From Solidesulfovibrio aerotolerans (GTDB taxonomy: Bacteria; Desulfobacterota; Desulfovibrionia; Desulfovibrionales; Desulfovibrionaceae), in contig NZ_WVUD01000011.1 in the NCBI RefSeq assembly GCF_009856865.1, forward strand, positions 1-64,000: 64,000 nt of DNA, in the 5' to 3' direction. A program made the translations under genes and the position numbers. Each line of letters begins with the position of its first letter. Position 1 is the stretch's first letter. Below the pieces are notes generated by a model. It had not been told where the DNA came from. It made no database searches and saw only the letters and a list, made by a program, of their open reading frames with translations. Shown in pieces: positions 13,181 through 60,687 of this stretch.

Positions 13181-13245
13181 GCCTCCGGCGGCCGGGGGGG
13201 ATAATCCCCCCCGGACCCCCTTGATAGGAGAAGTTTTTTAAGGGG
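13181..13245 (-). repeat. dispersed 3'-end element, core copy C
   Basis: This 65-bp stretch matches, on the minus strand, the distal part of the two 148-bp copies at 34068-34215 and 39185-39332. Shared blocks are GCCTCCGGCGGCCGGGGG, CCCGGACCCCC and AAGTTTTTTAAGGGG. It begins 8 bases after the marR stop. Its hairpin is CCGGGGGGG / CCCCCCCGG around ATAAT, different in sequence from but equal in length to the stem in the other copies. Confidence 0.8.
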
Positions 13246-24599: not shown

Positions 24600-25753
24600 T
24601 GCAAAGCGGCTCCATGCTCGAAAGCGCGCTGCTCAAAACGCACTTCGACGTCATCCCTTTTGGCATCTATGTCGTTGACGTGGTCTCGTACGAGCTGGTC
24701 TTCGTCAACCGCCATTACCGCAAAAGTCTTGGCCAGGCCGAGGGCGGTATCTGTTACAAAGTCCTCTACGACAACGATACCCCGTGCCTGCATTGCCGTA
24801 TCCCGGAACTGCTCACCGAGGCGGGCCTGCCAAATGGCCAGACCGCCATTTACGACCACTACAACGACCGCAATGAGCGCTGGGCCCAGATTCAGGAAAA
24901 AGCCATGGGCTGGCCCGATGGCCGGGTGGTCAAATACGCCATTGCCGTTGATATCTCCGAGCTCAAAGAAACCCAGAACCGTCTGGCCGAGGCCCATGCC
25001 GAGCTGGCCATTCGCAACCGGGAGTTGGCCGGCCAAAACAAGGCGCTGACAGACAGCATGGATCTGCGCGAACATGTGGAGCGCATCGCCCGCCATGACC
25101 TCAAAGCGCCGCTGTCGGCCCTGATCGGCTTGCCCCAGGTGCTTTTGGAGAACTATGATCTGCCGCCCCAGGCTGCTGAGATTGTGGGGCTTATGGAACA
25201 GGCCGCCCATTCCATGCTCGACATGCTCAATCAGTCCCTGGTGCTCTATCGCCTGGAGACGGGTTCGTTTACGCTGACCCCGCAGCCCCTGGATCTGCTC
25301 GATCTGGCCCAGCGCACCTGCACCCGGCTGTCCAACATGCCCACAGCCCGGGGCCGCAGCCTGTTGACAAGCCTGTCCGGCGCTCCGATTCCCTCTGGTG
25401 CCCGGGTGGATTTCGCCGGTGACGACCTTCTGCTTGGCCCCATGCTGCAAAATATCATCGTCAATGCCCTGGAAGCCTCCCCCGAAGGCGGGCTGGTCAG
25501 CGTGGATCTGCGGCCCGAATCCGACGCAACACGCCTTGTCGTGACCAATGACGGGGAAGTGCCCCCCGAGATCCGGGCGCGCATGTTTGAGAAATACGTG
25601 ACCCAGGGCAAGCGCGGCGGCACGGGTCTTGGCGCGTATTCGGCTTTTCTGGCGGCCAAAGCCCACGGCGGGCGCATTGATCTCGACGCAGGCACCCCGG
25701 GGCGCACCGTCGTCACCGTGACCCTGCCGCGTTTGGGAGGCGGTGGAGCATGA
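24599..25753 (+). CDS. Cys-motif PAS sensor histidine kinase
   Basis: A 384-residue soluble kinase. A PAS domain (about 10-115) contains the motif C-x10-C-x2-C (Cys52, Cys63, Cys66; CYKVLYDNDTPCLHC). A short coiled coil leads to the dimerisation helix with His166 in RHDLKAPLSAL. The ATPase domain has NIIVNALEASP and the G box GGTGLGAYSAF. The start overlaps the regulator stop by one base. A GTG at 24596 or ATG at 24614 are alternatives. The PAS domain is paralogous to that of the next gene, which ends instead in a cyclase. The three cysteines suggest a metal, heme or redox sensor (inference). Confidence 0.88.
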   Translation: MQSGSMLESALLKTHFDVIPFGIYVVDVVSYELVFVNRHYRKSLGQAEGGICYKVLYDNDTPCLHCRIPELLTEAGLPNGQTAIYDHYNDRNERWAQIQEKAMGWPDGRVVKYAIAVDISELKETQNRLAEAHAELAIRNRELAGQNKALTDSMDLREHVERIARHDLKAPLSALIGLPQVLLENYDLPPQAAEIVGLMEQAAHSMLDMLNQSLVLYRLETGSFTLTPQPLDLLDLAQRTCTRLSNMPTARGRSLLTSLSGAPIPSGARVDFAGDDLLLGPMLQNIIVNALEASPEGGLVSVDLRPESDATRLVVTNDGEVPPEIRARMFEKYVTQGKRGGTGLGAYSAFLAAKAHGGRIDLDAGTPGRTVVTVTLPRLGGGGA

Positions 25754-26649
25754 TGGAAAACGCCCTCTTTGAAAGCCATTTCGATCTCATTCCCTTTGGC
25801 ATCTATGTGGTGGATGCAGCCAGCAACGATATCATCTACTGCAACAGTGCGTTTATCGAGCACTTTGGCAACCATGTGGGGTGTTGCTGCCACAACGCCC
25901 TCTACGAGCGCCCCGTTCCCTGTCCGTGGTGTTATGTGCAGGAACTGATGACCGATCAAGGCCTGCCCAACGGCGAAACCCGGGTGTTTGAGCATTTTAA
26001 CGAGTCCGACGACCGCTGGTATCAGATGCAGGTGCGGGCCATGACCTGGCCCGATGGGCGGGTGGTGCGCTACGCCATTGCCGTGGACATTACCGAACTC
26101 AAGGCCACCCAGAACCAACTGGCCGAAGCCCATGCCCGGCTGGCCCTGACCAACCTTGAACTGGTGCGCCTTTCGACCACAGACATGCTCACCGGGTTGG
26201 CCAACCGCCAGCATACCGAAACCCTGCTGGAGGCGGCCCTGGCCGCTCTGGCCCGGGACGGGAAGCCCTTTAGCCTGATCATGCTCGATATCGACAATTT
26301 CAAGGCCATCAACGATCACCACGGCCATTTGCGCGGGGATGACGTGCTGCGGGCTTTGGCCGGCCTGTTGCGGGATGCGGGGACGCAGGGGCCGGCTGTT
26401 GGCCGCTGGGGCGGCGAGGAATTTCTCGTCGGCTGTCCGGGTTTGCATCTGGCGGATGCCTATGTTCTGGCCGAGAGCCTGCGCCGGGCCATATCGTGCC
26501 TCGATCTGTCCGGGATAGGGCGCATCACCTGCAGTTTTGGGGTGACCGAGGCCCGGGCCGGGGACTCCCCGGTGCATTTGCTGACCCGCGCCGATCAGGC
26601 GCTCTACATGGCCAAGGCGTTGGGGCGTAACCGGGTGGAGACGGCCTGA
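25750..26649 (+). CDS. Cys-motif PAS diguanylate cyclase
   Basis: A 299-residue protein with an N-terminal PAS domain (about 5-115) very like that of the preceding gene: both begin with a near-identical H-F-D-(V/L)-I-P-F-G-I-Y-V-V-D segment, and Cys47, Cys58 and Cys61 match the same C-x10-C-x2-C spacing. The GGDEF domain follows (about 135-298) with TDMLTGLANR at its start, LDIDNFKAINDHHGHLRGDD and the active site RWGGEEF (about 217-223). The RxxD inhibitory site is absent. The start overlaps the previous stop (ATGA). It should make cyclic di-GMP under control of its PAS ligand. Confidence 0.9.
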   Translation: MMENALFESHFDLIPFGIYVVDAASNDIIYCNSAFIEHFGNHVGCCCHNALYERPVPCPWCYVQELMTDQGLPNGETRVFEHFNESDDRWYQMQVRAMTWPDGRVVRYAIAVDITELKATQNQLAEAHARLALTNLELVRLSTTDMLTGLANRQHTETLLEAALAALARDGKPFSLIMLDIDNFKAINDHHGHLRGDDVLRALAGLLRDAGTQGPAVGRWGGEEFLVGCPGLHLADAYVLAESLRRAISCLDLSGIGRITCSFGVTEARAGDSPVHLLTRADQALYMAKALGRNRVETA

Positions 26650-33886: not shown

Positions 33887-33918
33887 GGGGGGCGGGGGCT
33901 TAAGCCCCCGGCCCCCCC
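33887..33918 (+). terminator. large GC hairpin after the exported protein gene
   Basis: A GGGGGG arm, then CGGGGGCTT, pairs with AAGCCCCCG and CCCCCC with no extra loop bases. The stem is about 15 bp. There is no T run after it on the plus strand. It may end the upstream transcript or belong to the repeat family found next to it. Confidence 0.6.
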
Positions 33919-33947: not shown

Positions 33948-34067
33948 TTGCGGCATTGTCCGCCTGATGGAAGTGCATTTCCCGCTCCCACCCACCGTCA
34001 CGGCAACGCCGTCCCCCTTTACCCCTTGCCTCCATCTGGGATTCCAAAGGGCTGTCACTCCCTTTGG

Positions 34068-34215
34068 CCGCCGGAGCAACGGTGGTTCCTGTCAAGCAAC
34101 AACGCTCTCTGTCCAGGCTGATAGCCGACCCGTTTGCCAGCCAACGCCCAAAACCCCTTGAAAAACTTTTCCCGGTGGGGGGTCCGGGGGCCTCAGGCCC
34201 CCGGCCGCCGGAGGC
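34068..34215 (-). repeat. dispersed 3'-end element, copy A (148 bp)
   Basis: Nearly identical over 148 bp to 39185-39332. On the minus strand the order is GCCTCCGGCGGCCGGGGG, a hairpin (CCGGGGGCC / GGCCCCCGG around TGA), then AAAAGTTTTTCAAGGGGTTT and a further 90 conserved bases. It begins 19 bases after the stop of the deacetylase gene (34235). Confidence 0.88.
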
Positions 34216-34234
34216 TCTTTTCTTTTCCTGCCGG

Positions 34235-35281
34235 TCATTTTTCCAAGGGCTGTGGCGTGGGCTTTGGTCCGCTTTTTTTGCGTGGATGGGTGGTGCCGTC
34301 GCCGAAGAGGGCGTCGTATTGGGCCGTGTCGCCGGGATGGCTGTCGTAGCAGTCCGAGGCGATGATCGGTCGGCCGGCCGCCAGCAGTTCGCTCACCGTG
34401 ACCAGCTTGAAGCCGCGTTTGGTCAGTTCCGCAATCAGGACGGGCAGGGCTTCCCCGGTGCCGTGGCCGTTGCCGTTGGCGTGGCCGATGATGATGTCGC
34501 CGGGGCGCACCCGTTCCAGCACGACTTTTAGGATGCGTTCCGGGGTGCTCAGCGGATCAGGGTCGCCGGTGGTCAGGCTCCACTGGATGGCGGGAAGGCC
34601 CCGCTCGGCGAGCAGCGACAAGGCCTCGGCCCGGCAGCGGCCATAGGGAAAGCGAAATACCGTCGGCACGGCCGGGATATGGGCCAGGATCGTTTCCGGC
34701 AGGCCGTGCCGGCTGGCCAGCTGCACCAGTTCGGCCCGCAGCGCGGCGTACTGGGTTTGGGTCCAGTCTATTTCCCGGATCATGGCGGCAGTGTCCAGGC
34801 GGCCGAAATTGCCATGGGTCCAGGCATGGCTGCCGATCTCGAAAAGCGGATCGGCCATGAGCTGCATGGCCCGATCCGGGTGGGACCGCAGCCATTTGCC
34901 GCCGACAAAGAGCGTGGCCCGGGCATGAGCGGCGCGCAGGGCATCGATGACGGCTCCGTCATAGCCGGCAACCTGATCCGCCAGTTCGCACAGATCAAAG
35001 GTGAGGGCGACGAGCTTTTGGCCGTGGGTATCCACCCGGCGGATGGAACCGCGCAGATTCTCGGGCAGGGGGGGCAGGGCCGGGGCGGTAACGGACGTCG
35101 GCGGTGAACGGTCCGGCTGGCCCAGCCGGCCGGATTTGCGTTCGGCCGCCGTGCCGGCCAGTTCGGCCGGGCTCCACAACGTGCTTGGAATCGTTACCAC
35201 GTCGCAATCGGCCCTGGCCGTCGGCGGCGAGGGGAAAGCAAGGCAGGCAAGCGTCAGGAAGAGCAAAAGGGCAGGGCGCAC
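34235..35281 (-). CDS. exported polysaccharide deacetylase (NodB domain)
   Basis: A 348-residue protein with a signal peptide (about 1-24) and a NodB homology domain (about 95-320). Motif 1 reads LTFDLCELAD, where the second Asp of the usual TFDD is Leu. The metal-site histidines are in SHAWTHGNF, and motif 3 is FRFPYG. The family removes acetyl groups from polysaccharides or peptidoglycan with a divalent metal, so the motif change may alter metal use or activity. The start is a GTG with AAGGAG 8 bases before it. An ATG at 35389 adds a region without family resemblance. A repeated element lies just after the stop. Confidence 0.85.
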   Translation of the reverse strand: MRPALLLFLTLACLAFPSPPTARADCDVVTIPSTLWSPAELAGTAAERKSGRLGQPDRSPPTSVTAPALPPLPENLRGSIRRVDTHGQKLVALTFDLCELADQVAGYDGAVIDALRAAHARATLFVGGKWLRSHPDRAMQLMADPLFEIGSHAWTHGNFGRLDTAAMIREIDWTQTQYAALRAELVQLASRHGLPETILAHIPAVPTVFRFPYGRCRAEALSLLAERGLPAIQWSLTTGDPDPLSTPERILKVVLERVRPGDIIIGHANGNGHGTGEALPVLIAELTKRGFKLVTVSELLAAGRPIIASDCYDSHPGDTAQYDALFGDGTTHPRKKSGPKPTPQPLEK

Positions 35282-35483
35282 GCCGGTATCTCCTTGGGGC
35301 GCTCCCGAACTAAGCCGGGCCGCCGGGGTGGTGTGGCTGGGAAAGGTGGCACGCGGGGCCGGGCTTGGCAAGATGGGCGCGACAGGCACGGGTGACTGGC
35401 AAGCCCCGGTCCAAGCCTCCCACGCCGCCCCGGGAGGATGGCAGTGACCAAAGCGGCGCGGGAGGGGAAGGCGAATAGGCGGG

Positions 35484-35693
35484 CTAGTCGGTGACCAGCA
35501 TGACGCTGGAGGCCTTGACCATGGCCTTTATGGGCTGGCCCACGACAAGGCCCATGGCTTCAACAGAGTGTTTGGTGACGACAGACACGATTTCAACGCC
35601 GGGCGCGATTTCAATAACGACTTCGCTGCTGACCATACCGTTGGTGATGGATTTGATCATGCCGGGTACGAGATTGCGGGCACTGACTTTCAT
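35484..35693 (-). CDS. molybdopterin/molybdate-binding (Mop domain) protein
   Basis: A 69-residue protein consisting of one Mop domain (SARNLVPGMIKSITNGMVSS, then VVIEIAPGVEIVSVVTKHSV). Single-Mop molbindins bind molybdate or tungstate as oligomers and act as a cytoplasmic store or buffer. AGCCCTCC lies 4 bases upstream on the plus strand, so GGAGGGCT is the ribosome site. The modA gene is about 6 kb away and no permease genes are beside either. Confidence 0.9.
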   Translation of the reverse strand: MKVSARNLVPGMIKSITNGMVSSEVVIEIAPGVEIVSVVTKHSVEAMGLVVGQPIKAMVKASSVMLVTD

Positions 35694-35850
35694 GGAGGGC
35701 TCCTGGTTGGAGGTTGATCTACCATGAAAGAGTAGCTGTTCTGATTTCTTCAGGTCAATACTGTCAATTGAATTGGCGCTGCTGTCACCCTGTTATGAAA
35801 TTTCATGTAAGCGGGAGGCTTGGCCGCGGTGAGCGATCCGCAGTATTGTG

Positions 35851-36924
35851 TTACTGGCGCTGCTTGCCCTGGCTATGGGAGTTTTTGCGGGAGGATTCGG
35901 CTTTACTGGACTTGGCCGACTTGGAACGCTTGGATTTGGACGAGACATCGTGGGCATCAAAGCGGGCCGAAGCGCCGCGTCGGGCACTGACCTTGCTGCT
36001 GCGGTGCTCGGAGTTGGCCACGCGCAGGTTCTTGCCGTGGTGGCTTGTTCTGCCGCGCTTGGATGTGATTTTGGTCGGGGCCGGTTCGGGAACGTCGCAG
36101 GAAGCGACCATGCTGTCCACGACGCCGGAGAAAGAGGCGTCGAGGATGCGGGTGGCTTCGCGGTTGCGCAACTGCTTGGTGCGCCCGCCGAGGACCACGG
36201 CGATGACCCGGGAATCGCCGCGTTTGGCCGTGGCGATGATGTTGTAGCCGCTGGCATCGACATAGCCGGTCTTGATGCCGTCCACGCCGTCACAGGAATT
36301 GAGCAGATGGTTGGTGTTGCCGTGGACCGCGCCGTTGTGATTGATCACGGTGGTGGAATGGTAGCGCAGGGCCTGGGGATAGCGGTGCAGATAGCTGACG
36401 GCCAGGGTGGTGAGATCCCGGGCCGTGGTCAACTGGCCCGGGGCCGGCAGGCCGTTGGGATTTTTAAACGTGGTGCCGTTCATGCCCAGGGCGCGGGCCT
36501 TGCGGTTCATCAACTCCACGAAACGGGGGATGCCGCCGAAATGCTCGGCCACGGCGATGCAGGCGTCGTTGCCCGAGGCCACGGCCATGCCGCGCATGAG
36601 GTCGTCCAGGGTGACGACTTCGCCGGAGCGCAGGCCCATGGACGAGCCGCCGGTGGCATCAGCCTGGCGGCTGACCTTGACCCGATCGGTGAAATTGGCC
36701 TGACCCGAGGCCACGAGGTCAAAGACCACATACATGGTCATCACCTTGGTCAGCGAGGCCGGGGGGATGCGGCGGTCGGCGTCCTGGCTGTAGAGCGTCC
36801 TGCCCGAGCCAAACTCCGTGACCAGGGCGGATTTGACGGCCAGTTTCCCGGATTGCTTGGCCGGGAAGGCCGATTTGGGTCCGATGAGACAAAGGAGGAC
36901 AAGCAAGAATAGTACGCGGCGCAT
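35851..36924 (-). CDS. D-alanyl-D-alanine carboxypeptidase (S11 family, PBP5-like)
   Basis: A 357-residue serine peptidase with a signal peptide (MRRVLFLLVLLCLIG). The active site is complete: SxxK in PASLTKVM (Ser57, Lys60), SGN in ASGNDA (Ser117) and KTG in GIKTGYV (Lys218). It trims the terminal D-Ala of peptidoglycan stems in the periplasm. The last 80 or so residues form a Ser-, Lys- and Arg-rich tail instead of the usual PBP5 domain. GGGAGG sits 6 bases before the ATG. The longer frame to 37047 is not needed. Confidence 0.93.
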   Translation of the reverse strand: MRRVLFLLVLLCLIGPKSAFPAKQSGKLAVKSALVTEFGSGRTLYSQDADRRIPPASLTKVMTMYVVFDLVASGQANFTDRVKVSRQADATGGSSMGLRSGEVVTLDDLMRGMAVASGNDACIAVAEHFGGIPRFVELMNRKARALGMNGTTFKNPNGLPAPGQLTTARDLTTLAVSYLHRYPQALRYHSTTVINHNGAVHGNTNHLLNSCDGVDGIKTGYVDASGYNIIATAKRGDSRVIAVVLGGRTKQLRNREATRILDASFSGVVDSMVASCDVPEPAPTKITSKRGRTSHHGKNLRVANSEHRSSKVSARRGASARFDAHDVSSKSKRSKSAKSSKAESSRKNSHSQGKQRQ

Positions 36925-37163
36925 GACGCCTCCCAGATTAAAAAAGTGATACGAGTGCCGCTGCAACCTTGGCTGCCCCTGGCCGTCGTCAGGCGAGCAT
37001 GATCCATGCCAGCCAAAACCTGTTTTGCGGCCGCAAACAGCCAACAAACTGGAAATGCGCGGGATTTGATGCTGGATTAAAATCGGGCCGGCAGACGGTC
37101 CACGGTTGGGCGTACACGCTGGTCAAAAACGTTTACGATTTTCAAACGAGGTGTTTGATAATG

Positions 37164-38339
37164 TTAGACGCTTTTGGGGGCAAGCATTAAATGCCGCAAT
37201 GCCTCAATTTTTTCCAGATACTCCCGGCGATAGACCTCGCCATTATTGGTAAAAGCGGCGGCCCGCCGGCTATGGGCCTCGCACCACGCGGCCAGGGCCG
37301 GGTCCGGTCGGCGCGCGCCGTAGGCCCGCACCATATGCAGCAGATTGTGGCACACCGGCATATGGGGCGCGGCTGCGAGCAGCAGTTCCGTTGCGCTCTC
37401 CTGAGGGCATAACAGGAAATGCCCCACAGCCCGGGCCGCCCGGTAGTTGGAGCCGCTTATGAGATGTTCGATCAGGGCGTCGTCGCTTAAACGCTCCGGG
37501 GCAAAGGGTTGCTGCCAACTTTCCGGCACGGATTCTTGCGGGGCATACGTCACCCGGCCGCTGGCCAGGGTGGCGGCGATTGTGGCCGCAAGAGCCGGCC
37601 ACAGGCCGCCGGCATGCTCCAGATCGCGGCTGATGGCCGGCCGGCCGTCGGCCGGCGAAGCGGAGACGCGCAGAAACGGAAAAAGAGCTTCCACCGGCGC
37701 GCCGGACCGGGCGGCCACCCCGGCCATGATCCGGTCGGCATCGAGAAAAAAGACGCCGGGCACGGTTTCGACCCAGGCGGCGAATTCCCGGCCGGCGGTA
37801 AAGCACAGTTCGCCCCAGCCGTCGAGATAGGAGTGGGGGGCCGGCCCCAGGCCCGGGTAGTGGCTCATGCGCCCGGCCACCAGGATGGGCAGGCCGGGGA
37901 GCCGCTCCCGCAGCAAAAGGAGCATGGCGGCATAGCGGTCGAGATAGCCGGCCGGCTTGGGCACAATAGCCTGAAAATGGCGGTCCATGGCCCGGCCCAG
38001 GGCCGGCTTGCCGGCGTAGGCGTTGGGATCGAGATAGAAGGCGTAGCCGTCGGTTTTATGGAGAAAAAGCGGCCGGTTTTCGTGGAACAGGTTTATGACC
38101 AAGGCCTGGGCTTTCGGGTCGGGCGCAGGCGGCACAAACTGGTCAACAAGTTCCCGGGAGTGGAGATATTCCCCGACCTTGGCCCCAGAAATGAGCGACG
38201 CCACCAGGGGCGGCACGAAGCCCGGCGAGGCCGTCAGCGTCAGGGGCGAGGCCAGGGAGGCAAAAGAGACGTCGCAGCCAGCGGACGCGGCCGCTTCGGC
38301 GCAAAACTGCATCTGGCAGTTGCCGCGAAAAAGGATCAT
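37164..38339 (-). CDS. WcbI-like polysaccharide-associated protein
   Basis: A 391-residue protein starting MILFRGNCQMQF. The GNCQ motif near the N-terminus is characteristic of the WcbI family, a GDSL-like fold linked to capsule or LPS polysaccharide modification. Later segments are HSYLDGWGELCF and a helical C-terminal half from about 270. The assignment rests on one motif and general length, so it is moderate. GGGGAGG precedes the ATG. It is divergent from the MBL-fold gene with 82 bases between, so the two promoters share that interval. No other glycan genes are adjacent. Confidence 0.6.
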   Translation of the reverse strand: MILFRGNCQMQFCAEAAASAGCDVSFASLASPLTLTASPGFVPPLVASLISGAKVGEYLHSRELVDQFVPPAPDPKAQALVINLFHENRPLFLHKTDGYAFYLDPNAYAGKPALGRAMDRHFQAIVPKPAGYLDRYAAMLLLLRERLPGLPILVAGRMSHYPGLGPAPHSYLDGWGELCFTAGREFAAWVETVPGVFFLDADRIMAGVAARSGAPVEALFPFLRVSASPADGRPAISRDLEHAGGLWPALAATIAATLASGRVTYAPQESVPESWQQPFAPERLSDDALIEHLISGSNYRAARAVGHFLLCPQESATELLLAAAPHMPVCHNLLHMVRAYGARRPDPALAAWCEAHSRRAAAFTNNGEVYRREYLEKIEALRHLMLAPKSV

Positions 38340-38421
38340 GGTCAGCCTCCCCGGGTGCTGGGCATCAATCGGCAAGGGGTTTGCAAGGCATTTTGGGAAA
38401 GGACAATTTTACCGGCAGCCT

Positions 38422-39042
38422 ATGTACATCAAGACGTTTCCCATGCAGCCCTACGGGGTCAACAGCTATCTGGCCTGGAATGCCGACGGCACGGCCCTGG
38501 TCGTGGATTGCGGCGGCCAGCCCGACGTGCTGGTGGAGCACTTGCAGGCCTACAGTCTGAAGCTGACAGCTATCCTGCTCACCCACCTCCACCATGACCA
38601 TGTGCTCGGGGTGGCCACGTTGGCCGCGCAGACCGGGGCGCCGGTCTTTGCCTCGGCCGCCGACGCCGTGCTGGTCGAAACGGACAGCGACAGCCCGGAC
38701 GCCGCTTTGCCTGCCGTGCCGCCGTTCGCGTTTAAGGACATCCGTCACGGTCGCGCAACGTTTCTGGGCGAGCCCTGTCTGGTCCTGCCGGTTCCCGGGC
38801 ATACGCCGGGCCATCTGGCCTATTTTTTCCCCAAAACACTTACCGCCTTTACCGGCGACACGCTCTTTCGCGGCAGCGTGGGCCGCACCGACAGCCCCTA
38901 CGGCGACGCCTCCCTGCTCCTGGAGTCCATCCGCAGCCGCCTGCTCGTCCTGCCGGACGCCGTGGAGCTTTTTCCGGGACATGGCCCCTCCACCACCGTG
39001 GGTCGGGAAAAGGCCGAGAATCCCTTTTTCGCTCCGAAATAA
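38422..39042 (+). CDS. MBL-fold metallohydrolase (glyoxalase II-like)
   Basis: A 206-residue single-domain hydrolase with the metal motif LTHLHHDHVLG (HxHxDH) and further His/Asp ligands in VPGHTPGHL and FTGDTLF, ending with FPGHGPSTTVGREK. Two zinc or iron ions activate water. Compared with true glyoxalase II the C-terminal substrate domain is missing. Relatives hydrolyse thioesters of many kinds, and no substrate can be named. No clear ribosome site precedes ATG 38422. An AAAGGA sits 20 bases off, so the start could lie slightly elsewhere. Confidence 0.87.
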   Translation: MYIKTFPMQPYGVNSYLAWNADGTALVVDCGGQPDVLVEHLQAYSLKLTAILLTHLHHDHVLGVATLAAQTGAPVFASAADAVLVETDSDSPDAALPAVPPFAFKDIRHGRATFLGEPCLVLPVPGHTPGHLAYFFPKTLTAFTGDTLFRGSVGRTDSPYGDASLLLESIRSRLLVLPDAVELFPGHGPSTTVGREKAENPFFAPK

Positions 39043-39102
39043 CTTTCGCCGCTTCCCGCCGCCGGCCCGCTGCGTCTGCAGTCCACCTGCCCCATGACAA
39101 TG

Positions 39103-39132
39103 AAAAAAGACGCGCCCCGAGCGGGACGCGTC
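39103..39132 (-). terminator. terminator for the minus-strand carboxypeptidase transcript
   Basis: GACGCG-CCC pairs with GGG-CGCGTC in a stem around GAG, with one mismatched base on each arm. On the minus strand a run of T residues follows. It lies about 220 bases after the carboxypeptidase stop, beyond repeat copy B. Confidence 0.7.
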
Positions 39133-39184
39133 CTCGAAGCCTCTTGTCTTTCTCAACGGGGTAGCAAGGGGGCACTGTATGCGT

Positions 39185-39332
39185 CCGCCGGAGCAACGGT
39201 GGTTCCTGTCAAGCTCCAACGCTGACTCTCCAGGCTGGTAGCCGACCCGTCTACCAGCCAACGCCCAAAACCCCTTAAAAAACTTTTCCCGTTGGGGGGT
39301 CCGGGGGCCTCAGGCCCCCGGCCGCCGGAGGC
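39185..39332 (-). repeat. dispersed 3'-end element, copy B (148 bp)
   Basis: Same element as 34068-34215, roughly 90 percent identical by eye over equal length. On the minus strand it begins 17 bases after the carboxypeptidase stop (39350). The hairpin and the AAAAGTTTTTTAAGGGG block are intact. Confidence 0.88.
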
Positions 39333-39349: not shown

Positions 39350-40855
39350 CTAGATGCCGTAAATAGCTGCCGCCTTGGCGCGCAGATGGCGTACCAGCGG
39401 TCCGGCTGTTGGTGCTTGGCCGGTTGCCTGGGTGATGAGGGCGCGCGGGCGCAGCAGGCGGCCTTTTTCGTGGACGGCTTTACCCAGCCAAGCCAGCAGC
39501 GGGGCGAAATCGCCGGCCGCCATGCGGGCGGGCAAATCCGGGATGGCCTGGCCGGCGGCCTCGAACAGGCAGGCGGCGTAAATGTTGCCCAGGCTGTACG
39601 TCGGGAAATAGCCAAAGGCACCGGTGGACCAGTGGACGTCCTGGAGGCAGCCCAGGGCGTCGTTTGGCGGCGTCAGTCCCAAAATGGCTTGGGATTTTTC
39701 GTTCCAGGCCCCGGGCAGGTCGGCCACGGCCAGATCGCCCCGAATGAGCGCCAGTTCCAGTTCGAAGCGCAGCACGATATGCGGGTTGTAGGTGGTCTCG
39801 TCGGCGTCCACCCGGATAAGCCCCGGCCGGATGGCTCCCACATCCCGAAAGACGTCAAGCGGGGTCAGGCCGGCCAGTTGTGGAAAATGCGCGGCAGCCA
39901 GGGGCAGCATATGCTCCCAAAAGGGCAGGGAGCGGGCCACCTGGTTTTCCCATAGCCGCGATTGGGACTCGTGCACGGCAAAGGAGGCCGGTTCGCCCAT
40001 GGGCGTGCCGTAGTGGCCGTTGCCGACATGGCCCAGGCTGTAGAGGGCATGGCCGGTTTCGTGGACGGCACCGAAAAAGGCCTTGGTGAAATCATCTTCG
40101 TCAAAGCGGGTGGTGATGCGGGCGTCGCCCGGCCCGATGAGGGTGGAAAAGGGATGGGTCGATACGTCCAGGCGCGAGGCTGCGGCCGGCAGCCCGAGGC
40201 GGGCCGTGACCTGGGCCAGCAGCGCTTTCTGTTCCTTGGCCGCATACGGCCCGGCGGGCAGGGGAGCGGGCTGGGGCGCGTCAGCGATGGCCCCCAGGAT
40301 GTCTGTGGCGGCGTCCCGTAGCTCAGCCAGGATGGGGGCGATGGCCGCCACGGTCTCCCCTGGCTCGAAGAGATCGAGCAGGGCGTCGTAGGCCTCGCCG
40401 GCATAGCCCAGGGCCTCGGCCTTTTGGCGCGACAGGTCGAGCAGGCTGGTCAGGTGCGGGGCAAAGGCGGCAAAATCGTTGTCTTTGCGGGCCAGTTCCC
40501 AGGCCCGCTGGCCGGTGCTTGCGGCCTGGGCCAGGGCCACGGCCAGGGATTCGGGGATTTTAACAGCCTGCTCATAATCCCGGCGCAGCTCCCGGATGTT
40601 GGCAGCTTCGGGCGAGGCTGCATCCCGGGTCAGTTCCGACCCTTGGCAGGCGTCCAGCCACTGGCCCATGGCCGGATCGCAGGCCCGGCGGTGCAGGATT
40701 GCGGTCAAGGCTCCGATCTGCTCGGCCCGGCCGGCATGGCCGGCGGGCGGGATCATGACCTGCTGGTCCCAGGAGAGCAGGCTCAAGGTGGCCGCGATGT
40801 CGGCCGAGGCCCGGCTGTGGGCGAGGAGTTTGTCGTAGGCGTCCCTGGCGTTCAT
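39350..40855 (-). CDS. carboxypeptidase Taq (M32 family metallopeptidase)
   Basis: A 501-residue M32 peptidase. The zinc site is HETGH in GAVHETGHALYSLG at about residue 265. Family blocks include MGEPASFAVHESQSRLWEN (the third ligand Glu and the substrate loop) and the end region RADETTYNPH-like VDADETTYNPHIVLRFELE. It removes C-terminal residues from peptides in the cytoplasm. The ATG overlaps the stop of the upstream lipoprotein gene (ATGA), so the two are coupled. Two repeats and a terminator lie after it. Confidence 0.94.
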   Translation of the reverse strand: MNARDAYDKLLAHSRASADIAATLSLLSWDQQVMIPPAGHAGRAEQIGALTAILHRRACDPAMGQWLDACQGSELTRDAASPEAANIRELRRDYEQAVKIPESLAVALAQAASTGQRAWELARKDNDFAAFAPHLTSLLDLSRQKAEALGYAGEAYDALLDLFEPGETVAAIAPILAELRDAATDILGAIADAPQPAPLPAGPYAAKEQKALLAQVTARLGLPAAASRLDVSTHPFSTLIGPGDARITTRFDEDDFTKAFFGAVHETGHALYSLGHVGNGHYGTPMGEPASFAVHESQSRLWENQVARSLPFWEHMLPLAAAHFPQLAGLTPLDVFRDVGAIRPGLIRVDADETTYNPHIVLRFELELALIRGDLAVADLPGAWNEKSQAILGLTPPNDALGCLQDVHWSTGAFGYFPTYSLGNIYAACLFEAAGQAIPDLPARMAAGDFAPLLAWLGKAVHEKGRLLRPRALITQATGQAPTAGPLVRHLRAKAAAIYGI

Positions 40856-48985: not shown

Positions 48986-49204
48986 TTACTTGAGGCGGTA
49001 GGTGATGCGGCCGCGGGTGAGGTCGTAGGGGGAAAGCTCGACCTTGACCCGGTCGCCGGGCAGGATGCGGATGTAGAACTTGCGCATTTTGCCGGAGATG
49101 TGGGCCAGCACGGCGTGCCCGTTTTCCAGCTCGACGCGAAACATGGCGTTGGGTAGTGCTTCCTGCACCACGCCGTCGACCTCAATAGCGCCTTCTTTGG
49201 CCAT
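48986..49204 (-). CDS. infA: translation initiation factor IF-1
   Basis: A 72-residue IF-1, normal length. The S1-type OB fold reads [20 protein letters not shown], then [20 protein letters not shown] and the end [10 protein letters not shown]-1 binds the ribosomal A site during initiation. AGGAGG lies 8 bases before the ATG. It is convergent with the beta-CASP gene. In many genomes infA lies in the ribosomal protein operon, so a stand-alone copy like this is one of several known placements. Confidence 0.96.
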
Positions 49205-49378
49205 AATCTGTATCCTCCTGCGGCACGCCGTATGGGCGCGGCCGCTACGGTCGCGTTGTTGAGAACGTAGTAAGATAGTCGATTTTTTTACGGTTGGCAA
49301 GGGGGCGGGAGCGCTTCTCCAGTCCTTGCCGCCTGCCCGCCTTTCAGATTATACCCCGGGAAAAAAGGATATAACGCC

Positions 49379-50578
49379 GTGCTTACGCGCCCCCAATTGG
49401 AAAAATACGCCGATGTTCTCGTCTGGGGACTGACCACTTCGCGCGCCGAACCGTACAAGCCGGGCGATGTCATCCTGGTCCAATACGAACTGGCCGCCAT
49501 AAAGCTCGCCGAGGCCGTGTACGCCAAGCTTTTGGCCCGGGGGCTTAATCCCGTGCCCCGGCTGGCCCTGACCCCGGCCATGGAATCCGCCTTTTACGGC
49601 GTGGCCGACGAGGCCCAGCTCGTCTTCCAGGCCCCCGGCCAGGTCGAACTCAACGAAAATCTGCACGGTGCCATGCATCTGCTGGCCCCGGACAGCTTGA
49701 CGCATTTAAGCGGCGTCGATCCCAAACGCATTGCCACGGCCGCCCTGGCGCGAAAACCCCTGCGCGACATCTTAGTCGGCCGGGAGGAGCGGGGCGAATT
49801 CGGCTGGACGCTGTGTCTGTATCCCACCGCCGAACTGGCCGCCAAAGCCGGCATGACGAAAAAAGAATACGCCGCCCAGGTCATTGCAGCTTGTTTCTTG
49901 AAAGACGCCGACCCGGTCGCCCGCTGGAGCAAGCTGTACGAAGACGCCCGGGAAATAAAAGCCTGGCTTGGCAGCATAAAGGCCGAATACCTGCACGTCG
50001 AATCCGCCAACGTGGATTTGAAGGTCACGCCCGGGGCCAAGCGCCGCTGGCTGGGCCTGTCCGGCCACAATATCCCGAGTTTCGAGATTTTCACTTCCCC
50101 GGACTGGCGCGGCACCACCGGGCGGTATTACGCCGATCAGCTGTCGTATCGCAGCGGCAACCTGGTCGGCGGCGTACGCCTGACCTTTGCCAACGGCCAG
50201 GTCACGGAGATTGCCGCCGAACAGGGCGAGCAGTTTGTGCGCAAACAATTGGCCATGGACCCCGGGGCTTCCCGGCTGGGCGAGTTTTCCCTGACGGACC
50301 GCCGGTTCTCCCGCATCGACAAATTCATGGCCAACACGCTCTATGACGAGAATTTCGGCGGAGCGAACGGAAACTGCCATGTGGCCGTGGGAAGCTCCTA
50401 TTCCGACACCTACGACGGCGACCCGGCCAGCCTTGACGCTGCCGCCAAAGCTGACCTGGGCTTTAACGATTCGGCCCTGCACTGGGATCTGGTCAATACC
50501 GAGCCCAAGCGGGTCCGGGCGCATCTCGCCGACGGCCGCGACGTCACCATTTATGAGGATGGCCAGTTCGCGTATTGA
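49379..50578 (+). CDS. aminopeptidase, M29 family (PepS/AmpS-like)
   Basis: A 399-residue metallopeptidase of normal M29 length. The conserved metal-site block is GHNIPSFEIFTSPDWRGTTG, followed by EFSLTD, and near the end NGNCHVAVGSSYSD and ALHWDLV. Two metal ions in the C-terminal half remove N-terminal residues from peptides. The start is a GTG. AAAGGA lies 11 bases before it, so a modest ribosome site. It might start later at an internal Met, but the first residues fit homologues. Confidence 0.92.
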   Translation: MLTRPQLEKYADVLVWGLTTSRAEPYKPGDVILVQYELAAIKLAEAVYAKLLARGLNPVPRLALTPAMESAFYGVADEAQLVFQAPGQVELNENLHGAMHLLAPDSLTHLSGVDPKRIATAALARKPLRDILVGREERGEFGWTLCLYPTAELAAKAGMTKKEYAAQVIAACFLKDADPVARWSKLYEDAREIKAWLGSIKAEYLHVESANVDLKVTPGAKRRWLGLSGHNIPSFEIFTSPDWRGTTGRYYADQLSYRSGNLVGGVRLTFANGQVTEIAAEQGEQFVRKQLAMDPGASRLGEFSLTDRRFSRIDKFMANTLYDENFGGANGNCHVAVGSSYSDTYDGDPASLDAAAKADLGFNDSALHWDLVNTEPKRVRAHLADGRDVTIYEDGQFAY

Positions 50579-50660
50579 CGCCGACGGGAAGGCACCGTAT
50601 CGCGGCAGTGGCGCGCGGTCCTGGGGACCGGCGCGACCGGGGATATGCAAGGAGTGGGGT

Positions 50661-51143
50661 ATGCGCAGATTGGCAGTGCTGAGCGTGGCGGCGGTTCTTT
50701 TGGTTTTTGGTCTGGCCCAGGCCGGTTCCAAGGCCAACCCGGACATCAAGGGCTGGGAAAAGGGCGGGGAATACGACAGGATGTTCGATCCCAAGGAAGC
50801 CGACGCCATCAAAGGCCGGGTGGTGAAGATTTATGACATGACGCCATCGCCCGGCATGGCCACGGGTGTTGCCTTGCAGGTCGAGGACAAAAAAGACAAA
50901 ACCCTGGAAATCGTCCACCTGGGACCAAAAGATTTCGTTGATCTGGCCTCCATTGGCCTGAAAGAAGGCGACCAGATCAAGGCGGCCGGGGTCTGGGCCG
51001 AGTTTGACGGCCAGGATGTGCTGCTTGCCGTCAAGGTGAAAAAGGGCGAGAACCAGCAACTCAAGGTCCGACGCACCAAGGACGGCTTCCCTTTTTGGAG
51101 CATGACACCCGAGGAACGCCAGCGGGAATCGGCCGGAGACTAG
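50661..51143 (+). CDS. hypothetical exported protein, possible OB-fold
   Basis: A 160-residue protein with a signal peptide (MRRLAVLSVAAVLLVFGLAQ, cleavage near AQA). The mature part opens with GSKANPDIKGWEKGGEYDRM and then has alternating strands, IKGRVVKIYDMTPSPGMATG, LEIVHLGPKDFVDL and GDQIKAAGVWAEFDGQDVLL, which look like a small beta barrel of the OB type. The last segment is charged (FPFWSMTPEERQRESA). I do not recognise a named family. AAGGAG before the ATG supports the start, 82 bases after the M29 gene. Confidence 0.8.
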   Translation: MRRLAVLSVAAVLLVFGLAQAGSKANPDIKGWEKGGEYDRMFDPKEADAIKGRVVKIYDMTPSPGMATGVALQVEDKKDKTLEIVHLGPKDFVDLASIGLKEGDQIKAAGVWAEFDGQDVLLAVKVKKGENQQLKVRRTKDGFPFWSMTPEERQRESAGD

Positions 51144-51263
51144 TTTTTTTCGCCGTCGCCACGGATCGGCCTTGCATTGTTGGGCCTGCTTTCGTTACTA
51201 GTGGTCTAAGAGACGTATTCTGCCGCCGCAGGGGCGGCCACACCATAAATGGGAGCTTGTCGC

Positions 51264-51740
51264 ATGGAGGAAACCCTCAAGAAACAGGATGCCGAACTGC
51301 TGCAGCTCGTCACGTTTAGTATTGGCGAGGAAGAGTTTGGTGTCGATATCCTCAGCGTGCAGGAGATCATCCGCATGATGGATATCACCAAGGTTCCGCG
51401 CGCCCCTGACTTTGTCGAGGGCGTCATCAATCTGCGGGGCAAGGTCATTCCCATCATCGATCTCAGGCGTCGCTTTGGCCTGTCCACCCGGGACCACGAC
51501 AAGCATACCCGCATCATTGTCATTGAGATCAACAATATGATCGTGGGGTTTGTGGTCGATTCCGTCTCCGAGGTGCTGCGCATACCCGCCAGCACGGTCG
51601 AGCCGCCACCACCGGTGGTTTCCGGTCTGGAATCGGAGTATATCAGCGGCGTGGGCAAGCTTGAGGATCGGTTGCTTATCCTTTTGGATCTGAACAAACT
51701 GCTTTCCGGCGAAGAGCGCGACATGCTCGGGTCGTTCTAG
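51264..51740 (+). CDS. cheW: chemotaxis adaptor protein CheW
   Basis: A 158-residue single CheW domain. The beta-rich fold includes LVTFSIGEEEFGVDIL, VQEIIRM, the conserved VINLRGKVIPIIDLRRRFGL and the end segment ISGVGKLEDRLLILLDL. It links chemoreceptors to the CheA kinase. No cheA or receptor gene is in the window besides the CheA-like kinase at 20491, which lacks a CheW-binding domain. GGAG lies 8 bases before ATG 51264. The earlier ATG at 51249 would place that site inside the gene. Confidence 0.93.
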   Translation: MEETLKKQDAELLQLVTFSIGEEEFGVDILSVQEIIRMMDITKVPRAPDFVEGVINLRGKVIPIIDLRRRFGLSTRDHDKHTRIIVIEINNMIVGFVVDSVSEVLRIPASTVEPPPPVVSGLESEYISGVGKLEDRLLILLDLNKLLSGEERDMLGSF

Positions 51741-51904
51741 ATCCAAGCCGCCACGCGCTCGGACCTGCGCCGGGGCGAGGTCTGGAGTGCTCCAGGCCTT
51801 GCCGTATCCTGGCTTGATGCGGCCGCTTGTGGGGCCGAGGCAACATTCGTTTGATTTCACGGCCGCCGTCACGACCTGTGGCGGCGGCCATCCCGTATTT
51901 CCCC

Positions 51905-54900
51905 ATGAGGCCTGTCTTGTCCCGCACCCCCTCTCCCCTTGCCGATCTTTTAGCCGGCGCTGATTCCGCCTCGGTCTATAAAAGCGGTCCGGCCACCTTG
52001 GCCTTTCTGGCCGTTGCGGCCCTGGCCCGGGGGCAGTCCGCCGTGGTTGTTGTCCCGGGTATGACGGAACTGACCCGGATTGCCGCCCTGCTCGAACTGC
52101 TGGCCCCGCCCTCGCCGGGAACCCTGTGGGGCGCGCCCTATGCCACCTTGCCATCCTATGCGCCCGGTCGCCCCAGCGGCGCGTTCTGGGCCAGACGCAT
52201 GGCCTTTTTGGCCTTTGCCGCCATGGGGCGCGGGCCTCGGGTGCTGCTCGTCACGGCGGATAACCTGCTCCCCAAGTGGCCGCCCCAGCGCGCCTTGGAA
52301 GGCAACATCCTAAACGTGGCCCTGGGCGAGGAACTGCCCCGGGATCTCATTGCCGAACAGGCCGTCCTGTGGGGCTACAAGCGTTCGCCCATGGTCACCA
52401 ACCCTGGCGAATTCGCCCTGCGCGGCGACATTTTAGACATCTTTCCGCCGGGCTACGACAGCCCGCTGCGCCTGGAATTTTTTGGCGATACGGTGGAGGC
52501 GATACGCCGCTTCGACGCCGGCAGCCAGCGCTCCCTGGCGGAATTAAACGAAGCCGCCTTGCTGCCGGCCGCCCCGGCGGTCCTCTCCGACACCTTCATG
52601 GATGAGGCCCGCGCCCTGTGGACCACCATCGCCGGCACGGGCGAACTGCACCGGACCGCCAAGCAGCATCTGGAAACCTGCCTGGAAACCCGCGACGGCG
52701 GCATCTGGCCCGGACTTTTCTATGAAAAACCGGTGGAGCTTTCCGCCTGGTTTCCCGAAGACGCCGCCTACCTCGTGAGCGATCCCACCAAGGTCAAGGA
52801 ACGCCTGGAAGAGGCCGAACACGCCTGGCGGCGGTTTTTCGAGGCCGAAACCAAGGAACGCGGTCATCCCTGGCCCACGTCCCGGGTGCTGTGGCCCGAG
52901 AACATGGCGCGCAAATCCCTGGTGGCCGGCCGGCGCATCCTCTTTGAAGATCTGGTCATGGGCCGGGGGCGGCATGGGCCGGATCTGCCGGAAAAGGTCG
53001 TGGAGCACTTTGGCGACATCTTCTGGAAGCCGGGGTCGGACAAACGGCCCTGGACCACGCTGGTGGCGTCGCTCAAAGACTGGAACCGCCAGGGCCAGAC
53101 CATCCTGTCCTTTCATGGCGAGCGCTCGCGTAAGAAATTTCTCCAGATGATCGAGCCTGAGGGGCTGGCCTTTCGCACCAGCTATGCCCCTGGAGAGACA
53201 GGACTTTTCGCGCTCATCTCGACGCTGCGCCACGGCATGGAACTGTCCTGGCGCGACACCCGCATCCTGGCCGAGGATATCCTGCATCCCGAATCGGCCA
53301 AGGCTGGAGGCGAGCGGGGCCGTGACAAGGATTTCAAGGGGCTGGCCTCTTTTGACGACATCCGCCCAGGCGATCTGATCGTACACCGCGACTACGGCGT
53401 GGCCACCTTCGAGGGCCTGACACGCATGACCGTGGACGCCACCGGCGGGGATTATCTGCTGCTGGTCTTTGCCGACGAGGACAAGCTCTATCTGCCAGCC
53501 GACCGGCTCGGCCTGCTCCAGCGCTACAAAGGCCCGGAAGGCATCTCGCCGCCGCTGGACCGTCTGGGCGGAGCGCGCTGGAAGTCGATTCGCGAGCGGG
53601 CCAAAAAGGCCATCGAGCGCATCGCCGCCGATCTGGTCGAGATGTACGCCTACCGGCAGGTGGCCAAGGGCTATGCCTACGGCCCCACCAACGAGCTGTA
53701 CCTGGAATTTGAGGCCACTTTCGGTTTCGAGGAGACCCCGGACCAGGAGCGGGCGATTAACGAGGTGCTGGCCGACATGGAGCGGCCTGAACCCATGGAT
53801 CGCCTCGTGTGCGGCGATGTGGGCTTTGGCAAGACCGAGGTGGCTTTGCGCGCCGCTTTTCGGGCTGTCCTTGACGGCAAGCAGGTGGCCATGCTCTGTC
53901 CGACCACGGTCTTGGCCGAGCAGCACTACCAGAATTTTGCCGCCCGGCTGGAAGGCTTTCCGGTGCGTGTGGAGATGCTGTCGCGCTTTGTTTCGCCCAA
54001 ACGCCGCAAAGTGGTGCTGGAATCCGTGGCCCGGGGCCAGGTGGACATCCTGATCGGCACCCACCGCATCCTGTCCTCTGACGTGACCATCCCCAACATC
54101 GGTCTGCTGATTCTCGACGAGGAACAGCGCTTTGGCGTCAAGCACAAGGAACGCCTCAAGGCCTTTAAAAAGAACATCGACGCCCTGACGCTGACAGCCA
54201 CGCCCATTCCGCGCACCCTGCAACTGTCGCTGTCCGGCGTGCGCGGGCTGTCGGTCATCGAAACCCCGCCCGTGGATCGCAAAACCGTGGAAACGGCTCT
54301 GGTCGAGCGCGACGAAGGCTTTTTGCGCGAAGTCATAAAGCGCGAACTGGAGCGCCAGGGACAGGTCTTTTGGGTGCACAACCGCGTGCAGGGGCTGGAG
54401 GATGTGACCGCTTACGTCAAGACCCTGGCCCCGGGGGCCAAGGTGGCCATGGCCCACGGCCAGATGTCGGAAACCGCCCTGGAAGAGGCCATGCACGGCT
54501 TCTGGCACGGCGAAACCGACATCCTGGTGTGCACCTCCATTATCGAATCCGGCCTGGATTTTCCTCGCGCCAATACGCTTATCGTCGATAACGCCCACAT
54601 GTTTGGCCTGGGCCAACTCTACCAGTTGCGCGGCCGGGTGGGCCGTTCGCCCCGGCAGGCCTTTGCCTATTTCGTGGTGCCAAGCATCGAAAAGGTGCCG
54701 GAACTGGCCCGAAAGCGCCTGCGCGTCATTCTCGATATGGACTATCTCGGGGCCGGCTTCCAGGTGGCCATGGAAGATCTGCGCCTGCGCGGGGCCGGTA
54801 ACATCCTGGGCGAGGCCCAGTCCGGCCATATCGCCCGCATTGGCCTGGACATGTTCCTGGAGATGCTCTCCGAAGAAGTGCGGCGCCTGAAGGGCGAACC

Positions 54901-55366
54901 CATCAAGGAGCACACCGAACCGGAACTGACCCTGGCCCTGCCTGCCCGCATCCCGGAGCGCTACGTGCCCGAGGCTTCGGACCGGCTGCGCCTGTACAAG
55001 GCCCTGTCCACGGCCCGTTCCGAGGAAGGGCTGGCCGAACTGGCGGCCGAGATGCGCGACCGGTTCGGGCCGCCGCCGCCGGAGGTGGACAATTTCCGGG
55101 CCGTTTTGGGTTTAAAGCAGGTGCTGGCCCGGTTGGGCGTGGCCAGGGCCGAGATTGCCCCGACCAAGCTCACTGTTTCCTTTGAGGGCGAAGGGGCGGC
55201 GGTCGAACCCCAGCGGCTGGTGGATTTTGTGGGCACGCATCAGGGCGCGCGCCTGCTGCCGCCGGGAAAGATCGTCCTGCCGGTGGATCAGACCCTGCCC
55301 TTGCCCGAGGCGCTATCGATTTGGGCCAGGGAACTGGCCGGGCTTGGCGAGGCAGGGACTCCGTGA
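51905..55366 (+). CDS. mfd: transcription-repair coupling factor Mfd
   Basis: An 1153-residue protein of normal Mfd length. Domains in order: UvrB-like N-terminal region, RNA polymerase interaction domain (GDLIVHRDYGVATFEGL and LYLPADRLGLLQRY, about 480-560), then the RecG-like motor with Walker A GDVGFGKTEVA (about 638), the DEEQ box in LLILDEEQRFGVKH and LTATPIPRTLQLS, and the C-terminal TRCF domain. It displaces stalled RNA polymerase and recruits UvrA. The start is set at an ATG followed by RPVLSRTPSP. No good ribosome site is visible. The last codon overlaps the next gene's GTG. Confidence 0.96.
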   Translation: MRPVLSRTPSPLADLLAGADSASVYKSGPATLAFLAVAALARGQSAVVVVPGMTELTRIAALLELLAPPSPGTLWGAPYATLPSYAPGRPSGAFWARRMAFLAFAAMGRGPRVLLVTADNLLPKWPPQRALEGNILNVALGEELPRDLIAEQAVLWGYKRSPMVTNPGEFALRGDILDIFPPGYDSPLRLEFFGDTVEAIRRFDAGSQRSLAELNEAALLPAAPAVLSDTFMDEARALWTTIAGTGELHRTAKQHLETCLETRDGGIWPGLFYEKPVELSAWFPEDAAYLVSDPTKVKERLEEAEHAWRRFFEAETKERGHPWPTSRVLWPENMARKSLVAGRRILFEDLVMGRGRHGPDLPEKVVEHFGDIFWKPGSDKRPWTTLVASLKDWNRQGQTILSFHGERSRKKFLQMIEPEGLAFRTSYAPGETGLFALISTLRHGMELSWRDTRILAEDILHPESAKAGGERGRDKDFKGLASFDDIRPGDLIVHRDYGVATFEGLTRMTVDATGGDYLLLVFADEDKLYLPADRLGLLQRYKGPEGISPPLDRLGGARWKSIRERAKKAIERIAADLVEMYAYRQVAKGYAYGPTNELYLEFEATFGFEETPDQERAINEVLADMERPEPMDRLVCGDVGFGKTEVALRAAFRAVLDGKQVAMLCPTTVLAEQHYQNFAARLEGFPVRVEMLSRFVSPKRRKVVLESVARGQVDILIGTHRILSSDVTIPNIGLLILDEEQRFGVKHKERLKAFKKNIDALTLTATPIPRTLQLSLSGVRGLSVIETPPVDRKTVETALVERDEGFLREVIKRELERQGQVFWVHNRVQGLEDVTAYVKTLAPGAKVAMAHGQMSETALEEAMHGFWHGETDILVCTSIIESGLDFPRANTLIVDNAHMFGLGQLYQLRGRVGRSPRQAFAYFVVPSIEKVPELARKRLRVILDMDYLGAGFQVAMEDLRLRGAGNILGEAQSGHIARIGLDMFLEMLSEEVRRLKGEPIKEHTEPELTLALPARIPERYVPEASDRLRLYKALSTARSEEGLAELAAEMRDRFGPPPPEVDNFRAVLGLKQVLARLGVARAEIAPTKLTVSFEGEGAAVEPQRLVDFVGTHQGARLLPPGKIVLPVDQTLPLPEALSIWARELAGLGEAGTP

Positions 55367-57111: not shown

Positions 57112-57300
57112 GCACGGGCAGCCAGGCATCGGTGGGCACGATTGCCTGGGGTGGCAAAAACGTTTATAGGCCCCAAAAGCGTGGTTGCGCCGGCCTGGGA
57201 GTGAGGACGCCGCAGCTTTGCTGACGTAACCGGGGCAGTGCCGGACGGGCGCGGTGTGTCTCTTGCACGCGGCCGACGCCGCCTCACCATGGAGGATACT

Positions 57301-58296: not shown

Positions 58297-58369
58297 CGCG
58301 CTTGTGATCGATCCGGCTGTCCGGGGGACCTCCCGCTCCCGGCGTGGCGGGCACAGAGGAGTTTTTTAT

Positions 58370-59851: not shown

Positions 59852-59937
59852 GGCGACCGGCGGGTGCGCGAGGTGTCTTTACCCGGCGCGCCTGGAAACG
59901 TCGGACGAGCCAATGGTGTGAGGGGGCGGCAAACGGC

Positions 59938-60687
59938 ATGGAATTTTGCGAACAGGCACTGGTACTTGCCGTACGGCGATTTCGGGAGATCGATGCCTGG
60001 GTACGGCTGCTTTCGCCGGTGCGCGGCGTCTATACTGCCTTTGCCTTTGGCGGCATGAAAAGCCGCCGCCGGTTCCTGGGCTGTCTTGACCCCCTTAACC
60101 ATGTCCAGTTCAAGGTGCGCCGGTCCGGCTACCGGTCCTATCACTGCCTGACCGAAGGCCGGCTTCTGGATTCGCCGCGGCAATTGCGCACCCATCCCCA
60201 GCGTCTGGGCATGGCGGTCAATTGCTTGAAATTTTTTGAGGCTGTGCCTATCCCGGCCCACAGCGCGGCCGAGGCCTACGCGCTTTTGCGCGAGCTTTTG
60301 GCCGCCCTGGATGCGGCCGAGGCTCCGTCGTCGCTGGTGCCGCTGCTGTTTCGGGCCAGGATGACGTTTGTGCACGGCATGTTGCCCGTGTGCGGCCACT
60401 GCGCCGCCTGCGGCAGGGCCCTTGGGGATAACGGGGCCGTGTGCCATGTCGAGGAAGGCAAAATTTTGTGCCCGGCCTGCCGCAGTGCCGCAAGCGGCGG
60501 CGTGCGCCTGCCGCTGTCCAGCGGGGCGCTGTCGCTGCTGGAGACTGCCGTCGCCCAGAGCCCGGACTGCTGGGCGCTCTGCCGGCCCCAGCCGACGGCG
60601 GCCAGGGAGTTTTCCCGGGCGGTCGATCTGCTGGTACGCTATCATATGGGCCTGGCCTGGGAGCAGGGCGGGTTTGTGCGGGCCTGA
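59938..60687 (+). CDS. recO: DNA repair protein RecO
   Basis: A 249-residue RecO. The N-terminal OB fold starts [20 protein letters not shown] and has the conserved [21 protein letters not shown] helical middle and a zinc finger follow ([12 protein letters not shown] and then CPACRS). RecO anneals ssDNA coated by SSB and loads RecA with RecR. It lies 86 bases after the RodZ-like gene and 85 before glyQ, and recO-glyQ-glyS is a common order. No strong ribosome site is seen before the ATG. Confidence 0.93.

Follow-up and report, generated by a model that had tools for sequence, protein, structure and literature searches.

A dispersed palindromic element behind stop codons in Solidesulfovibrio aerotolerans and its possible use as an mRNA 3' end

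The element in the window and in the genome

A 64,000-nt stretch of the Solidesulfovibrio aerotolerans genome (positions 1 to 64,000 of contig NZ_WVUD01000011.1; the window) carries two similar sequences of 148 nt, each of which lies shortly behind a gene and on its strand. What kind of element is this, and is the place behind a stop codon a property of the element itself? A preliminary description made from the sequence had located both repeats on the minus strand, and its coordinates were confirmed (Table 1). It had put their identity at about 90% by eye; the similarity held, and the measured value was 93% without gaps. The spacing of 19 and 17 nt after the stops was also correct, the first bases of the copies being 34215 and 39332 and the upstream open reading frames (ORFs) 34235-35389 and 39350-40855. 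Pfam assigned these ORFs to polysaccharide deacetylase and M32 carboxypeptidase, as the preliminary description had done. The window holds two further family members, one A-type and one D-type.

Table 1. Positions of the element and of associated features in the window
Feature	Position	Strand	Remark
Full-length C-type copy	34068..34215	-	19 nt past polysaccharide deacetylase stop
13-nt head GCCTCCGGCGGCC	34203..34215	-	305 exact genome copies
Core hairpin CCGGGGGCCTGAGGCCCCCGG	34184..34204	-	Stem covariation
Purine-rich leader, stop-to-head stretch	34216..34234	-	Leader composition from 60 copies
3' module GCTTGACAGGAACCACCGTTGCTCCGGCGG, closes full-length copies	34068..34097	-	23-nt module pattern: 14 matches/710 kb, reversed control 0
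D-type copy, tandem behind 34068-34215: head with 2 mismatches and hairpin CCAAAGGGAGTGACAGCCCTTTGG	34044..34078	-	
Full-length C-type copy	39185..39332	-	17 nt past M32 carboxypeptidase stop
Head and core hairpin, second copy	39301..39332	-	
Canonical U-tract terminator, downstream of second (M32) copy	39106..39135	-	
A-type copy: head and hairpin CCGGGGGGGATAATCCCCCCCGG	13181..13214	+	8 nt past same-strand stop

The window also contained other features. A GC-rich hairpin without a head, GGGGGGCGGGGGCTTAAGCCCCCGGCCCCCC, was seen at 33887-33918, soon after the stop of a plus-strand ORF at 33874; beside it, at 33920, the 3' module occurs on the minus strand. A pair of 224-nt direct repeats (24805-25028 and 25941-26164; 71% identical, 1136 nt apart) perhaps represents paralogous coding domains, and a 21-nt tandem repeat at 58879-58962 is perhaps a proline-rich linker within coding sequence.

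In the whole genome, the exact head occurred 305 times and the reversed word 0 times. When 2 mismatches were allowed, the pattern GCCTCCGGCGGCCNGGGG was found at 348 sites, compared to 34 for the reversed pattern. BLAST with the 148-nt copy gave at least 47 matches at E<=0.001, a lower bound as 40 of 284 candidates were scored. Full-length copies at unrelated loci were 83-93% identical. These results demonstrate a dispersed repeat of several hundred copies, far beyond chance, and the search of the genome and its relatives that had been proposed showed copies neither limited to two nor random in placement and strand. The length of 148 bp, however, describes one full-length variant and not the family: 16 of the 47 BLAST matches covered at least 145 of the 148 nt, and most others ended after 60-115 nt. 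Since most copies have only this 5' part in common, 148 bp was rejected as the unit. The AAAAGTTTTT tract, which had been named as a feature of the element, was absent from the D-type and E-type copies.

Structure of the element and its position at gene ends

The structure was determined in a sample of the genome consisting of the window and contigs C73 and C84 (710 of 4614 kb; the own sample). The element is composed of a purine-rich leader of about 20 nt, the 13-nt head, a hairpin at a fixed offset, and a variable tail; in the consensus of the own sample, the final CC of the head opens the perfect hairpin. The purine fraction of the 30 nt before the head was 0.77 in 60 copies, compared to 0.50 in 314 first 30-mers past other stops. 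A hairpin of at least 7 bp stood at the fixed offset at 58 of 60 non-genic heads and at 24 of 400 random places. The own sample contained 16 distinct hairpins, and the stem types include GGGGGGG/CCCCCCC, GGGGGCC/GGCCCCC, AAAGGGG/CCCCTTT, GGGAGGGGG/CCCCCTCCC, and others, with free energies of about -14 to -25 kcal/mol. Full-length copies are closed by a second module, GCTTGACRGGAAYCACSGTTGCTCCGGCGG; the pattern of its first 23 nt was matched at up to 5 mismatches. The short head was far better conserved than its surroundings.

Pairing was maintained while the stem sequence changed. Among 200 heads from 14 genomes, the complement of the 7-nt 5' arm was present in the same copy in 159 cases, compared to 183 of 4000 comparisons with copies of other types. 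An alignment of 30 distinct rows, taken from 163 distinct 40-mers by spacing and by the tail A[ACT][CT]CC and not by pairing, paired in 269 of 270 cells (99.6%), with changes on both sides in 6 of the 9 pairs; its covariation score was matched by 0 of 500 shuffles. The stem was followed by ACCCC, AATCCC or, in one row, AACCCC in these tail-selected rows, and the unselected list of copies agreed. As a whole, the first 148-nt copy folded no better than its shuffles (z -0.34) and the second slightly better (z -1.51); what is conserved is the hairpin alone. A source of small RNA, one of the roles considered at the outset, was therefore rejected with nothing in its support, and so was a known RNA family, as rRNA was the only Rfam match in the window. 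A single head can be followed by two stacked hairpins, as was observed in G172 (joined position 69834) and G095 (joined positions 29958, 137321, and 233718; L168, L173, L178).

We placed the 56 exact heads of the own sample relative to genes. A same-strand stop preceded 39 of them, 11 had none, and 6 lay inside called genes (39 versus 11, binomial p 9e-5). The median distance from stop to head was 28 nt, and 34 of the 39 were within 60 nt. Four of the six in-gene heads fall within the final part of a same-strand ORF, for which the element supplies the stop. The gene caller was a simple home-made hexamer scorer that misses genes, and strong hidden same-strand ORFs were found at some of the heads scored as lacking a same-strand stop. 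An ORF that reads through an element, which encodes its last residues, was also noted in the own genome at L074:11024-13126 (-); in relatives, the matching sequence reaches a stop codon near residue 661-671. In two other genomes picked for density, of which 400 kb each was counted, 13 of 22 heads (G095; 5 not, 4 in genes) and 23 of 36 heads (G217; 8 not, 5 in genes; median 93 nt) were past a same-strand stop, the G095 ratio of 13 to 5 being not significant (p 0.096). Divergent gaps of at least 100 bp contained an element in 1 of 64 cases in the own sample, 1 of 37 in G095, and 0 of 30 in G217. The counts of 39/56 heads and 1/64 divergent gaps bear out the earlier view that position and strand at gene ends belong to the element.

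Facing pairs exceeded the number predicted by independence, with both orientations in 5 of 151 codirectional gaps (p 0.0003) and 6 of 65 convergent gaps (p 0.025), and in convergent gaps each flanking gene often has its own element. Common facing pairs and a short head much more conserved than its surroundings would also be found in a signal that acts at the DNA level, such as an uptake sequence or a gyrase or nucleoid-protein site that is harmless at gene ends, as in Neisseria terminators; passages of PMC1852404 place uptake signals in terminators. We consider such a signal very improbable, because the same passages count a thousand or more uptake signals against the few hundred copies here, the purine leader and the hairpin are left unexplained, and full-length copies of 148 bp imply duplication.

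Terminators were then compared between gene ends with and without the element. A separate U-tract terminator was present at 1 of 42 element-bearing gene ends of the own sample and at 49 of 242 others (p 0.003); the single exception is the M32 copy of the window. G095 alone gave 0/17 versus 19/147, which was not significant, and both genomes pooled gave 1/59 versus 68/389 (p 0.0007), with one duplicated pair of G095 rows dropped before the Fisher test. A transcript end, as had been suggested for the element, remained plausible, but not in the form of a canonical intrinsic terminator, as ACCCCC or AATCCC, and no U, comes after the hairpin.

In G217, which belongs to another genus (g31), terminators were present at 5 of 14 element-bearing ends and 27 of 136 others; in its convergent gaps alone, the difference was opposite in direction (4/8 versus 10/62, p 0.045). 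The terminators there lie 21-56 nt before the element, and therefore the G217 element may be untranscribed. An element that can lie behind a terminator is compatible with a selfish or tolerated palindrome, which sits at 3' ends because insertions elsewhere were purged and which has no role in 3'-end formation; purging also predicts the near-absence from divergent, promoter-bearing gaps. We regard this explanation as unlikely. Passive insertion leaves the missing canonical terminators of the own genus unexplained, as well as the covarying stem, the sense bias, and the tight stop spacing, though a transposition mechanism could demand both the stem and the head.

Occurrence and turnover in related genomes

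Counts of the 13-mer in 247 genomes of the order were high in one family only (f1), which we infer to be the Desulfovibrionaceae. All ten genomes of the own genus had 117-363 heads and many other f1 genera had tens, whereas genus g3 had at most 8 and often none. In families f2-f6, no genome exceeded 4 heads. In a survey of the phylum (297 genomes), no genome outside f1 had more than 20 heads; this number was reached in G286 (family f42), against a control of 0, and the rest were low and mostly near the control. Copy number thus varies widely among genera, as would also be expected of a selfish repeat.

The M32 gene end was compared among relatives, which include Solidesulfovibrio magneticus (a metagenome-assembled genome, MAG) and Desulfovibrio sp. 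DV. Of 11 relatives that could be read there, 6 had the element and 5 lacked it; the stems were C-like, A/B-like, or D. Two loci were left out, one because its contig ended within the head and the other as uninformative, and G103, scored 'none' by the script, was counted as present by eye from its mutated head and hairpin. One C-G pair of the stem is T-A in the S. magneticus copy, and the 3' half of the element differs at the orthologous M32 site. An element was found behind 12 of the 61 orthologs compared for element-bearing genes and behind 11 of the 149 compared for other genes, counts that include three hairpins with 2 mismatches scored as elements that by eye are chance. As conservation at orthologous gene ends was weak, no single copy looks indispensable. 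Polymorphism between relatives fits a selfish repeat as well.

Weak orthologous conservation and changing stem types argue against terminators that the host evolved without mobility, in which U-tract-free hairpins, with a head that recruits a termination factor, are kept by selection. The identity of 83-93% at unrelated loci, yet with a different 3' half at the orthologous M32 site, and the missing U tract also speak against them. Their precedent lies in passages of PMC8355165, where U-tract-free hairpins near stop codons are proposed as terminators. The head is invariant across genera, the hairpin energies are those given above, and the two genes of a convergent gap often each have an element, all of which would suit such terminators. 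On balance, they appear to us improbable.

Turnover was also seen in longer comparisons. One convergent gap is a bidirectional terminator of 50 bp in four relatives; in the own genome, G124, and G182, it is 282-362 bp long with elements, and the stem types of these elements differ among the three genomes. Most elements were common to G172 and G078, which are 93% identical over 75.5 kb. One 170-bp element-bearing segment was present in only one of the two, with CGCCGCC on both sides and CGTCGCC at the empty site; a deletion can equally account for this pair. Another element differed by a 34-nt hairpin cassette directly behind the head. The two genomes (G172: L217, L218, L226-L235; G078: L219, L220, L236-L245) also differ by a 12-kb inversion at 49083-60879 of the joined 240 kb of G172. 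Elements are located no more than about 200 bp from either end of the inversion, and one alignment has its start exactly at an element (G172 5177). Recombination may take place at the repeats.

The element had also been proposed to be a miniature mobile unit. Its spread, the presence or absence and stem changes at orthologous ends, and the inverted ends in another genus are consistent with this; a transposase was not found and no target duplication was clean. In G217, 24 of 31 sites were a unit of 159-167 bp that closes with a 13-bp imperfect inverted copy of the head. Of 60 heads in the own genome, 25 had a perfect inverted partner 100-330 nt away, at variable distance, and the ends were otherwise mostly single. 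A plasmid or phage element was rejected, because the 148-bp copy had no match in the plasmid and viral collections searched. Two contigs of the viral collection contained the D-type core GCCTCCGGCGGCCAAAGGG (L187:223-241 and L188:733-751).

Possible role and comparison with known systems

Terminators are usually viewed as home-grown, one gene at a time. For the element described here, it is moderately probable on the basis of sequence comparison that a REP/MITE-like palindrome family was spread by copying and that its transcribed hairpin acts as the 3' end of mRNAs in this genus. A mobile origin of the palindrome is suggested by its duplication at unrelated loci, its polymorphism at orthologous ones, and its inverted ends, and the covarying stem, the place behind the stop, and the missing terminators suggest its use as a 3' end. 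From these observations, we infer transcription, 3'-end function, and mobility of the element. Copies would duplicate and settle behind stop codons, either as facing pairs or in the sense direction. In genomes like that of Solidesulfovibrio, the transcribed 3' end would then include the hairpin, which would set the 3' boundary of the mRNA, and the host's U-tract terminator would usually be missing where an element has settled. Passages of PMC9927376 describe the removal of mRNA tails left by Rho by 3'-to-5' exonucleases, and a stable stem could thus be a natural stop for trimming. The stem would most likely be a barrier to which transcripts ended further on, for example by Rho, are trimmed back.

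A wider proposal can be put forward only tentatively and is, as a whole, doubtful: a mobile palindrome, whose 13-nt word is read by a putative protein, took over the formation of 3' ends in many transcription units of one genus, displaced intrinsic terminators, and persists across the family for that service. If the use as a 3' end is true, a repeat supplies the mRNA 3' ends of many genes, and such gene ends will escape predictions of terminators and operons that depend on U tracts. With the invariant 13-nt word as a handle, a binding partner can be sought, and neighbour species that differ in having a copy behind the same gene are ready comparisons.

The element resembles canonical intrinsic terminators in its GC-rich hairpin shortly past the stop codon. 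It differs from them in the fixed 13-nt word before the stem and in the lack of a U tract directly after it; as ACCCC or AATCCC follows the stem, it is not a canonical terminator. The uptake signals of Neisseria and Pasteurellaceae are similar in that a short repeated word lies at gene ends, in terminators and often as inverted pairs, according to passages of PMC1852404. In those terminators, the stem is made of the word itself and leads into a U tract, whereas the word of the element is mostly unpaired before a separate stem without a U tract. Text searches for the head, its complement, and three longer forms returned unrelated papers only, and a published description of such a Desulfovibrio repeat was not found, in a search that covered mainly open-access literature.

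The closest likeness is to REP and BIME sequences, for which passages of PMC3733652 and PMC12306157 describe an unpaired tag at the stem foot, many extragenic copies, inverted dimers, and stem variants, with some REPs no further than 15-20 nt from stop codons. The element is likewise a high-copy extragenic palindrome with an unpaired tag, often behind genes, with inverted dimers and stem variants (58/60 hairpins, 305 heads). However, its tag is the GC-rich head, about 11-13 nt long, and not GTAG or CGTC, which were absent from the stem foot in the aligned and listed copies, where CCGGCGG precedes the stem C. The purine-rich leader, units of up to about 150-165 bp, and the scarcity of U-tract terminators also distinguish it from REPs. 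RAYT transposases are associated with GTAG REP families and are not required for CGTC families. None was found in the own genome, where two Y1_Tnp matches were examined, and a RAYT-driven REP was rejected on this ground. The intact Y1_Tnp was assigned to IS200/IS605 at 137 bits and reached 29 bits with the REP-associated model, for which the cut-off is 80 bits; no exact CCTCCGGCGGCC was present within the two loci, part of one being masked. The element shares with MITEs a non-coding, dispersed, and polymorphic nature and, in G217, a unit with inverted ends; it differs in that a partner transposase was not found, the target duplication was not clean, and the ends in the own genome are mostly single or variably spaced. 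As neither the GTAG/CGTC tag nor an association with RAYT was found when looked for, we do not file the element as a member of either family; it is REP-like and partly MITE-like.
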